From Bacteroidota bacterium (GTDB lineage: Bacteria > Bacteroidota > Bacteroidia > Flavobacteriales_F > PHOS-HE28), in contig JAFEAI010000004.1 of assembly GCA_018266475.1 (NCBI GenBank), positions 1 through 36,460 on the forward strand: a stretch of DNA of 36,460 nt, read 5' to 3'. Both the position numbers and the translations under genes were made by a program. Below the pieces are notes generated by a model. The model was not told the DNA's origin and did no database searches. It saw only the letters and a list, made by a program, of their open reading frames with translations. The number at the start of each line of letters is the position of its first letter. Within the stretch, counting starts at the first letter, position 1. Positions 8,972 to 35,769 of this stretch are shown one piece after another.

Positions 8972-9061
8972 GGAGAGGTGCCGGAGTGGTCGATCGGGTC
9001 TGTCTCGAAAACAGAAGTGCCCGCAAGGGTACCGGGGGTTCGAATCCCTCCCTCTCCGCCA
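8972..9061 (+). tRNA. tRNA-Ser (anticodon CGA), CCA encoded
   Basis: Class II tRNA. The acceptor stem GGAGAGG (8972-8978) pairs with CCTCTCC (9051-9057), followed by discriminator G and an encoded CCA (9059-9061). The anticodon arm is TCTGT-CTCGAAA-ACAGA, anticodon CGA at 9006-9008, decoding UCG. The long variable arm GTGCCC-GCAA-GGGTAC and the T arm GGGGG-TTCGAAT-CCCTC are intact. The last 18 bases before the terminal A recur twice downstream at 159-bp intervals. Confidence 0.95.
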
Positions 9062-9168
9062 ACGCCGCCCGCGCAGCGGGCGATGACGCAAGGCTGAAGG
9101 GTGCGGAGCTTGCTCCAAGCACCCTTCAGCCTTGTGGCATCACAGGCCGCGAAGCGGACTGTAGCGTT
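9061..9168 (+). ncRNA. Multi-arm fold, unit 1 of the tRNA-linked array
   Basis: Outer stem AACGC (9061-9065) with GCGTT (9164-9168). Arm 1 is CGCCCGC-GCA-GCGGGCG (9066-9082). Arm 2 has a perfect 16-bp core, 9089-9104 with 9119-9134, and an inner GGAGC-TT-GCTCC; including the flanks at 9083-9088 and 9135-9140 it pairs almost fully. Arm 3 is ACAG-G-CCGC-GAA-GCGG-A-CTGT (9142-9162). Read as RNA this is a four-way junction. Whether it is transcribed separately is not known. Confidence 0.5.
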
Positions 9169-9219
9169 GAAGCCCCCCCTCCGGGAAAGCCCGCCTCGGG
9201 CAATCCCTCCCTCTCCGCC

Positions 9220-9325
9220 GATCTGCCCCGCGAAGCGGCGGCAGGAATGGCAAAGGCCGCGGGCAAGCTCGCTTGGCAAGCGGGCGTTGACATTCCTGCG
9301 GGACCTGCGAAGCAGGTCGCAGATC
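9220..9325 (+). ncRNA. Multi-arm fold, unit 2 of the tRNA-linked array
   Basis: Different sequence, same architecture. The outer stem is GATCTGC (9220-9226) with GCAGATC (9319-9325). Arm 1 is CCGC-GAA-GCGG (9228-9238). Arm 2 is GCAGGAATG (9241-9249) with CATTCCTGC (9291-9299), enclosing a further imperfect stem. Arm 3 is GACCTGC-GAA-GCAGGTC (9302-9318). The tail carries GCGCG-CCT-CGCGC (9348-9360), where unit 1 has GCCCG-CCT-CGGGC (9189-9201). Confidence 0.5.
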
Positions 9326-9378
9326 GAAGCCTCCCCCCTCCGGGAAAGCGCGCCTCGCGCAATCCCTCCCTCTCCGCC

Positions 9379-9486
9379 AACGCCGCCCGCGCAGCGGGCG
9401 ATGCCAAAAGCCTGGGCGGTGCGGAGCTTGCTCCAAGCACCGTTCAGGCTTTTGGCATCACAAGCCGCGAAGCGGACTGTAGCGTT
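9379..9486 (+). ncRNA. Multi-arm fold, unit 3 of the tRNA-linked array
   Basis: Outer stem AACGC (9379-9383) with GCGTT (9482-9486), and arm 1 identical to unit 1. Arm 2, 9400-9422 with 9437-9459, pairs over all 23 positions including two G.T wobbles, although its sequence differs from unit 1 at many sites. Arm 3 contains CCGC-GAA-GCGG (9465-9475). The block after 9487 is degenerate. Confidence 0.5.
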
Positions 9487-9571
9487 GAAGCCTCCTTTAC
9501 GAAAGCGCGAAGCCATTCTCCGGCAACGCGGCCAATCACGTTTCCTCCTTGTCCGTTTCCTTTGCAGCACC

Positions 9572-13970: not shown

Positions 13971-14014
13971 GTACCCTGGCGGTCTTCCGGCCTGGTGATG
14001 GCGAAGGGCCGCGT

Positions 14015-14479
14015 TCAATTTTCCGTTTGGCCTTGCCGCTTTGCCGCCAAGGTTTTGTATTCCGCTCCTTGCTCCAATGCCTGCACAAAACCATGCACGT
14101 ATGTGGTGTCCAGTACATGGCCCAGCTCCTGTTTGATCCGCTCAAATGAATGGTGCATGGGGCAGGGGTCGGAGGCCTTGCAATCACCCAGCCCCATCAC
14201 GCACGCATTATCCTCAGGCCCGCCGCCCACCGCATCCATTACCATGCGGAGGTTGATCCGCCGGGCGTGGGCGGGCGGAAGGTCGAACCCTCCATTGGGC
14301 CCGCGCTGTGACATGATGATGCCCGCCCTGGCCAGGTCTTGCAGCACCTTGGCGGTAAATGCCTTTGGCGCGCCGATCCGTTGTGCAACCACCGGCATGG
14401 TCAGGCGTTCACCGGCCCAAGAGGCCCGGGCCAGCTCCACCGTGGCCCTGAAGGCATATTCGCAGGTTTTGGAGAACAC
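14015..14479 (-). CDS. Rrf2-family transcriptional regulator with three conserved Cys
   Basis: A 154-residue DNA-binding regulator of the Rrf2/IscR family. A winged helix-turn-helix occupies about residues 1-65, starting [16 protein letters not shown], with the recognition helix near [12 protein letters not shown] and the wing at QRGPNGGF. Cys93, Cys100 and Cys106 in [14 protein letters not shown] match the spacing of the Fe-S cluster ligands of IscR-type members, so it probably senses iron-sulfur status, oxygen or nitric oxide. The frame is open to a TTG at 14500, but a perfect -7 element spans 14498-14505, so I choose the GTG at 14479, which gives the usual family N-terminus. It is divergent from the methylmalonyl-CoA mutase gene. 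Confidence 0.9.
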
Positions 14480-14497
14480 GGGCAGGAAAGTCTGCCG

Positions 14498-14505
14498 CAA
14501 AGGTA
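14498..14505 (-). promoter_or_regulatory. Bacteroidota -7 element TACCTTTG for the Rrf2 gene
   Basis: Perfect match to TAnnTTTG on the minus strand, 18 bp before the GTG start at 14479. It overlaps the alternative TTG start at 14500, which it therefore makes unlikely. Confidence 0.6.
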
Positions 14506-14613
14506 CTTGCCCCGCACATCAGCCCTGGGAACGGCATGCAGCCACCACTGGAAGGAGTCTGCACACGCGTTGGCAGGCATCAATGGCCGAGCTTTGGCGG
14601 AATACCGGAAAAG

Positions 14614-14631
14614 CCCGATCATGCCATCGGG
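14614..14631. promoter_or_regulatory. Inverted repeat CCCGAT-N6-ATCGGG upstream of the mutase gene
   Basis: Six-bp arms at 14614-14619 and 14626-14631, 38 bp before the mutase ATG, in the 190-bp region shared with the divergent Rrf2 gene. It could be an operator; this is inferred from position and symmetry only. Confidence 0.3.
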
Positions 14632-14669
14632 ATTATTGCGGTCCGCCTCCGATACCGAACTTCGCCACG

Positions 14670-17948
<3,279 letters not shown>

Positions 17949-35459: not shown

Positions 35460-35769
35460 CCCCGCTCCATGAATTGTTGGCGCAGATCTGCGATCCGTGC
35501 CATTGTCCATTGTTGGCGCGGATCTGCGATCCGTGCCATTATTCTTTACATTGTTGGCGCGGATCTGCGATCCGTGCCATTATTATTTACAATTGCTGGC
35601 GCGGATCTGCGATCCGTGCCATTGCCCTCGATGAGGCCCTATACCATTATGACCAACAATAAGTGCGATTCCAGCTTCGCACCATTCCGACCATTTGCTT
35701 GTACACACTGCATTTACCACTGTAGGCATTCAAATCGTCCATTGGACTGACCTGCATGTCACACTGGGA
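35460..35769. other. Intergenic region with short palindromic repeats, no gene seen
   Basis: Between the convergent priA and RluA-family genes. It holds the four repeats at 35474-35623 and then about 140 bp with no recognisable feature. Frames across the repeats give peptides such as GADLRSVPL, a known sign of translated repeats rather than a gene. Confidence 0.6.
35474..35623. repeat. Four interspersed palindromic repeats of about 30 bp
   Basis: Copies begin at 35474, 35510, 35551 and 35593. Each contains CGGATC-TGC-GATCCG (AGATC in the first), flanked by TTGTTGGCG and TGCCATT; including a G.T pair the stem is 9 bp. The spacers are only 6-12 bp and AT-rich, so it is not a CRISPR array. It may double as a bidirectional terminator. 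Confidence 0.85.

Follow-up and report, generated by a model that had tools for sequence, protein, structure and literature searches.

The tyrT/tyrV locus of Escherichia coli, with its rtT RNA (rttR; Rfam RtT), is the closest known system to the DNA element described in this work. For the Salmonella rtT RNA, a difference in the copy number of a 175-bp tandem repeat has been tabulated (PMC2658671). Both in E. coli tyrT and in the element, tandem units follow a tRNA gene, and each carries the 3' end of the tRNA from position A58. Folded or palindromic repeats are known in other settings as well. Integron attC sites, like folded-ssDNA phage attachment sites, are recombination sites set by the folded strand, and REP/BIME sequences are short, non-coding, palindromic hairpin repeats, often clustered, which are moved by RAYT transposases.

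The array behind tRNA-Ser(CGA) and its fold

The window, a stretch of 36,460 nucleotides from a Bacteroidota bacterium (assembly GCA_018266475.1, contig JAFEAI010000004.1), carries three units of the element behind a tRNA-Ser(CGA) gene (Table 1). The element is a non-coding unit of about 150 bp made up of a four-way cloverleaf (stem P1 and hairpins P2, P3 and P4), the linker GAAGCCUCCCCC and a terminal hairpin, P5. P5 ends in the 3' end of the host tRNA, from T-loop position A58, and often runs into a copy of the tRNA end. In the window units P1 starts directly at the tRNA end, the linker reads GAAGCC(T)CCCCC, and P5 has the form GGGA-AA-[hairpin]-AA-TCCC, its 3' strand being the start of the next tRNA-end copy.

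Table 1. Features of the array; positions are those of the window
Feature	Positions	Strand	Basis
tRNA-Ser(CGA); T-arm GGGGGTTCGAATCCCTC, acceptor 3' strand CCTCTCC, then GCC(A)	8972..9061	+	ARAGORN; Rfam RF00005
Unit 1 cloverleaf; P1 9061-9065/9164-9168, P2 9067-9081, P3 9082-9141 (apex GAGCTTGCTC, with AA bulge), P4 9142-9162	9061..9168	+	CM match 9061-9207, 155 bits; fold; covariation
Unit 1 linker, GAAGCC plus C-rich run	9169..9182	+	sequence; phylum-wide conservation
Unit 1 P5 terminal hairpin (GGGA..AATCCC), imitation of the host T-arm	9183..9207	+	
tRNA-Ser 3' end, copy 2, A58 to C75	9202..9219	+	
Unit 2; P1 GATCTG/CAGATC, GAAGCCTCCCCC 9326-9337, P5 9342-9366	9220..9366	+	CM match, 108 bits
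tRNA-Ser 3' end, copy 3	9361..9378	+	
Unit 3; cloverleaf intact (P1 3' strand ends 9486), linker and P5 decayed	9379..9530	+	CM match, 128 bits
tRNA-Ser 3' end, copy 4, decayed (ATTCTCCGGCAACGCGG)	9515..9531	+	direct reading

A sequence-only reading of the window had pointed to the tRNA-Ser end recurring at 9202 and 9361 with a period of 159 bp, and to a decayed fourth start near 9516. Both observations hold: the 18-mer AATCCCTCCCTCTCCGCC, located at 9043-9060 in the tRNA, is found again as two exact copies, at spacings of 159 and 159 bp, and the fourth, altered copy lies where it was expected. The blocks between the copies, described there as structured, proved to be so, as the RNA of tRNA plus array folds at -305 kcal/mol, against -250 +/- 7 kcal/mol for shuffled sequences (z = -7.6). 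Speaking of 159-bp repeat units is correct as to the period, but not as to the alikeness of the units. Units 1 and 3 are 91% alike over 135 nt, whereas unit 2 is another sequence with the same fold. Similarly, the repeated tRNA end is present, but does not make the essence of the element, since single-copy loci fold alike and keep the cloverleaf without a full tRNA-end copy. A protein-coding role was rejected, as open reading frames cross the array by chance, and the fold is kept through a free turnover of unit sequences. The possibility of an assembly artefact was likewise discarded, since named isolates also carry the element, the complete chromosome of Pedobacter sp. PAMC26386 among them, as does a one-contig genome of the source genus. 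Two other tandem repeats occur in the window, one of 15 bp (CGTGAGTCTATGAGT, 4.5 copies) at 17226-17293, within the large methylmalonyl-CoA mutase ORF (13995-17948), the other of 41 bp (3.8 copies, 91% match) at 35473-35624, close to the contig end.

The cloverleaf fold is real. The fitting of alignments A5 and A7 to the structure biases the counts in favour of the fold. Of the cells in the 54-row genus alignment, 91.4% are paired, and double changes number 757 against 229 after shuffling; in the cross-genus alignment (88 rows, with loci almost all from genera other than the source genus) 89.8% of cells are paired, against 54.6% in shuffled and 42-51% in slid alignments, and double-change cells number 1566 against 439 after shuffling. 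That this bias does not alone account for the pairing is seen from the slid controls, paired at 37-51% over the two alignments, and from how far the sequences have diverged. Run unguided on the 88-row alignment, RNAalifold predicted 50 pairs, with compensatory changes in each. The spots of primary sequence conserved across families are few: the P3 apex, which reads AAGCUUGCUU, the P4 loop, of the form G-N-A, and the stretches UUG-A-GCCUC-CCCC and GGGAUCA...UAAUCCC. Pairing of P1 to P4 could also be maintained via templated repair of palindromes. In the tRNA-Ser GCT elements of two genomes, G000 and G004 (L023, L097), a block of adjacent bases near the P3 apex has changed on both arms together (AATGC/GCATT in one, ATCAC/GTGAT in the other), pointing to templated (template-switch) change besides selection.

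In most families the 5' strand of P3 opens with a T-run right after P2 (U 0.73-0.91 in successive columns), and the 3' strand has a matching A-run ahead of P4. P2 and the T-run make an intrinsic terminator on the tRNA strand, P4 and the A-run the same on the opposite strand. In the source genus several types and many copies have lost the T-run, which is absent from all three units of the window. With terminators facing each other, transcripts begun on either side should end short of the second half, and a full-length RNA cloverleaf should be rare. P3 pairing extends 10-15 bp past the T-run, and since this is not needed for termination, it favours folding of the DNA strand. That folding matters in DNA is more likely than that it matters in RNA, though this is an argument and not a proof.

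Distribution and match to the host tRNA

In the source genome (3.57 Mb) the element resides behind all four tRNA-Ser genes, and is thus no peculiarity of one tRNA. Next to the CGA gene of the window, the TGA gene is followed by three units, the GGA gene by one, which has no full tRNA-end copy, and the GCT gene by one full and three 5'-shortened units. A dispersed repeat of the REP kind was rejected, as the P5 pattern and the P3-apex motif occur in the source genome only at the four tRNA-Ser loci. The same loci hold every exact copy of GAAGCCTCCCCC, always on the tRNA strand.

By BLAST with the TGA array, matches were obtained in 20 of the 22 other species of the genus, and in none of 16 genomes of other families in the class. 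tRNA-Ser loci were extracted from 15 genomes of the genus, and most host the element; a terminator alone, or nothing clear, was found at all four loci of G010 and at several in G042 and G044. Missing at tRNA-Ser genes, the element is present in G010 at tRNA-Pro. Tandem units fall into two types, A, whole cloverleaves headed by the tRNA 3' end, and B, 5'-shortened units which begin near the P3 apex. Both types terminate in GAAGCCTCCCCC and P5, while single-unit loci terminate in AATCCCTCC. Of the 54 genus units, 34 have their nearest neighbour in another species at the same tRNA, and 20 have it at a different tRNA; judging from these counts, inheritance within the genus is mostly vertical, accompanied by exchange of units among tRNA-Ser genes. 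The Ser(GCT)-Pro(TGG)-Arg(TCT) cluster is without the element in G041 (176-nt gap) and G044, and is occupied by one unit in G017 (244-nt gap) and by an array in G059 (569-nt gap). The 'empty' clusters may host decayed elements rather than being virgin, since the terminator resembles the left half of the element, and no pair of filled and empty loci with an exact junction was obtained.

A covariance model, R1, was built from 12 units, including units 1 and 3 of the window but not unit 2, and without tRNA sequence. Searched against 345 genomes of the class, it matched seven genomes outside the genus. A tRNA immediately precedes six of these loci (tRNA-Ser five times, tRNA-Pro once), and a 3' fragment of tRNA-Ser the remaining one; all seven follow the same plan, and GAAGC[AC]TCCCCC and GGGAT..AATCCC recur in several. 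A second model, R2, to which the out-of-genus sequences had been added and which is likewise free of tRNA sequence, matched 97 of 395 genomes of the class, belonging to 57 of 196 genera, as well as genomes in two families from other classes of the phylum. Copies per genome range from one to seven. At 96 of 114 examined loci the element follows a same-strand tRNA, with 0-14 nt between the two. The host tRNA is Ser at 60 of them, Pro at 11, Val at 7, Met and Cys at 4 each, Arg at 3, Asp and Leu at 2 each, Gln, Lys and Gly at 1 each, a count which includes array units and several loci of one genome, so that the loci are not fully independent. Most of the remaining 18, inspected by eye, lie behind a tRNA 3' fragment or an in-array copy of the tRNA end. 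An independent pattern (linker plus P5), defined by sequence alone, was scanned over 84,980 species genomes, and gave 53 matches in 46 stretches, 45 of them in Bacteroidota records. For 41 of the 53 matches a tRNA was found upstream, in all cases tRNA-Ser, and isolates of Pedobacter, Sphingobacterium, Olivibacter and Parapedobacter are among the species hit. One exact pattern had zero matches in viral contigs, and the plasmid search returned tRNA-Ser genes only.

Elements at seven loci (L225, L226, L265, L277, L278, L300, L177) stand behind lone tRNA 3' fragments, which start from the anticodon arm or the T-arm, and look like the far ends of genomic islands that carried the element and the tRNA 3' end. 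In G195 (L203, L195) a separate array of irregularly spaced GCTTCCGAAGGAAGC palindromes lies just downstream of the tRNA-Ser elements, and in G309 and G286 (L209, L252 region) many copies of CCACGCATGGCNATGCGT-like palindromes are found near tRNA-Ser elements.

P5 resembles the T-arm of the host tRNA, whichever precedes the element. Behind tRNA-Ser it reads GGGAT...ATCCC, behind tRNA-Val CTGGAT...ATCCAG, behind tRNA-Cys GCGGAT...ATCCGC, and behind tRNA-Pro CAGGAT...ATCCTG, TTGGA...TCCA or GAGAT...ATCTC. Measured over 35 non-Ser loci, the longest repeat of the host tRNA's segment from A58 found downstream is 6.8 nt on average, against a mean of 1.7 nt and a maximum of 3.6 when tRNAs were permuted. 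The match is seen even in a single genome, G334, in which the element sits at several different tRNAs and P5 is matched. A copy of 16-19 nt, reaching the end of the tRNA, occurs at no fewer than 13 loci, mostly in other families, and incomplete copies occur elsewhere. Right after the last tRNA-end copy an ordinary terminator was found at 15 of 30 loci with a long right-hand copy, some of these terminators being the start of another unit; a terminator in this position is expected if the element was inserted ahead of the own 3' flank of the tRNA.

The array of the window is hence not a local by-product, but one locus of a phylum-wide family residing behind at least 11 kinds of tRNA. Local tandem duplication was rejected as a full account, as the same fold recurs at four tRNA-Ser genes and across families. 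The search of relatives for homologous arrays, which the sequence-only reading had called for, thus revealed the element across the genus and in many Bacteroidota genera. Its statement that no such array was known behind a Bacteroidota tRNA-Ser agrees with Rfam, which gave chance matches only, mostly to eukaryotic miRNA models, with no RtT at E < 5 in the window, and with a limited literature search for the element, in which nothing relevant was found. A known RNA family was discarded on the Rfam result, and the element is apparently undescribed so far.

Explanations of the element

Taken together, tRNA association, the tracking of the host tRNA by P5, covariation, insertion-like anatomy and varying occupancy suggest a selfish, non-autonomous element specific for tRNA 3' ends, a reading to which a probability of about 0.5 may be assigned and in which mobility is what we infer. 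The mostly vertical inheritance, the 'empty' loci, which may be decayed, and the absence of viral-contig matches to one exact pattern weaken it. According to this reading, the element would be copied or moved at low frequency between tRNA 3' ends, while one DNA strand is folded. Events would occur in hairpin loops: those in the T-loop, at A58, would yield type A units headed by the tRNA end, those at the P3 apex the 5'-shortened units of type B. The host would tolerate the element because its left half still terminates the tRNA transcript. The array in the window would have formed by stacking of such copies, unit 2 being of a type seen at other tRNA-Ser genes. Of what had been proposed from the window, it is a 'trace of repeated integration at the tRNA end' that lies nearest to these findings, again with the reserve that we infer mobility.

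The element might alternatively be a trailer RNA with a function for the host. A read-through transcript would fold and be processed to a small RNA that would act as a sponge, or as a decoy, for RNase P, RNase Z or the CCA enzyme, in line with a proposal made for rtT RNA. The strand-specific site behind tRNAs is compatible with this, as are the compensatory changes by which copies differ, the stable loops of CUUG and GNRA type and the imitation of the T-arm by P5, and the loss of the T-run in many copies of the source genus makes read-through conceivable. Yet, in most families the T-run after P2 would end transcription before two thirds of the element are made, and presence is patchy even among the tRNA-Ser genes of one genome. 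Host tRNAs also differ widely, and a trailer RNA seems unlikely. A decoy for tRNA 3'-end enzymes, also envisaged in the sequence-only reading, is a possible role, and the full element should rarely be transcribed where terminators are intact.

Hardly better or worse placed, and to be regarded as improbable too, is a bidirectional terminator of tRNA genes which duplicates in place, with no mobility and no further function. Selection would preserve the two facing terminators, palindrome repair would maintain the likeness of the arms, and microhomology of AATCCC in T-arm and P5 would give rise to tandem copies. It would account for the T-run and the A-run on the two strands of P3, for single-unit loci ending in AATCCCTCC, which is the microhomology required, and for inheritance being mostly vertical. 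It leaves unexplained the linker GAAGCCUCCCCC, the apex AAGCUUGCUU, the P3 pairing past the T-run, and the same plan at 11 tRNA kinds, with P5 matched to each.

More doubtful still is a bolder version of the mobile element, a folded DNA strand which addresses itself. Base pairing between the P5 strand and the T-arm of the tRNA, and not the specificity of a protein, would pick the site, and E. coli rtT would be a distant relic. If sites were chosen by base pairing, one element family could occupy many different tRNA genes. Last, scars of ordinary tyrosine-integrase islands having the tRNA 3' end as attB, tRNA genes being the usual targets of integrases (PMC4383910; PMC9897764), would explain the direct repeats of the tRNA 3' end and the partial tRNA 3' halves at some loci, but are very improbable and largely refuted by covariation. 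No island lies between repeats about 150 bp apart, the P5 loop is without the T-loop sequence that an attR should retain, and a conserved cloverleaf is not expected from unrelated islands.

By the present analysis, an oddity known apparently from one enterobacterial locus becomes a widespread family with a precise anatomy, the function, spread and mechanism of which are made testable in cultured Bacteroidota. Should the element prove mobile, it would rank with the smallest that are site-specific, and the rule for its targets could be read off its own sequence. Should it have a function, dozens of genera would have a conserved structure, missing from current RNA libraries, joined to their tRNA genes.

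Comparison with known systems

As in genomic islands and satellites that tyrosine integrases insert at tRNA genes, a copy of the tRNA 3' end stands displaced on the far side of the element, the boundary falls in the T-loop region, and the tRNA is left intact. In this the element behaves like a displaced attachment site of such islands. It differs in its length of 150 bp, too short to encode an integrase, in carrying no gene, and in its conserved single-strand fold. Nor is the sequence at the boundary identical, as in the overlap of attachment sites, the T-loop TTCGAAT being replaced by GGATCA-hairpin-TAAT or variants. attC sites also have a variable terminal structure within a short stem, as seen in P5. 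By inspection, the consensus boxes RYYYAAC/GTTRRRY of attC are absent from the element, the P5 stem being GGGAT/ATCCC or the host variant, and the element sits only at tRNA ends. With REP/BIME repeats the element shares being short, non-coding and palindromic.

The parallel with E. coli tyrT, drawn already in the sequence-only reading, was a good one: the K-12 copy likewise begins at A58, with a T-arm-like hairpin (GAAGG...CCTTC) closing it. In K-12 (NC_000913.3:1286000-1288200) each repeat ends in an imitation of the tRNA-Tyr T-arm, in which a hairpin replaces the T-loop (GAAGG[..GAGCGAAGCGAC..AATAAT]CCTTCCCCCACCACCA), before the copy of the 3' terminal 19 nt of the tRNA. This imitation, apparently not described before, comes from one homologous set of units, and could be due to chance. 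The E. coli system differs in being confined to one tRNA-Tyr locus, in its unit of about 178 bp, and in being devoid of the cloverleaf, of the GAAGCCUCCCCC linker and of the AAGCUUGCUU apex. Since R2 had zero matches at E < 1 in the E. coli tyrT locus, and no RtT was found in the window, the Bacteroidota element is not called rtT RNA.
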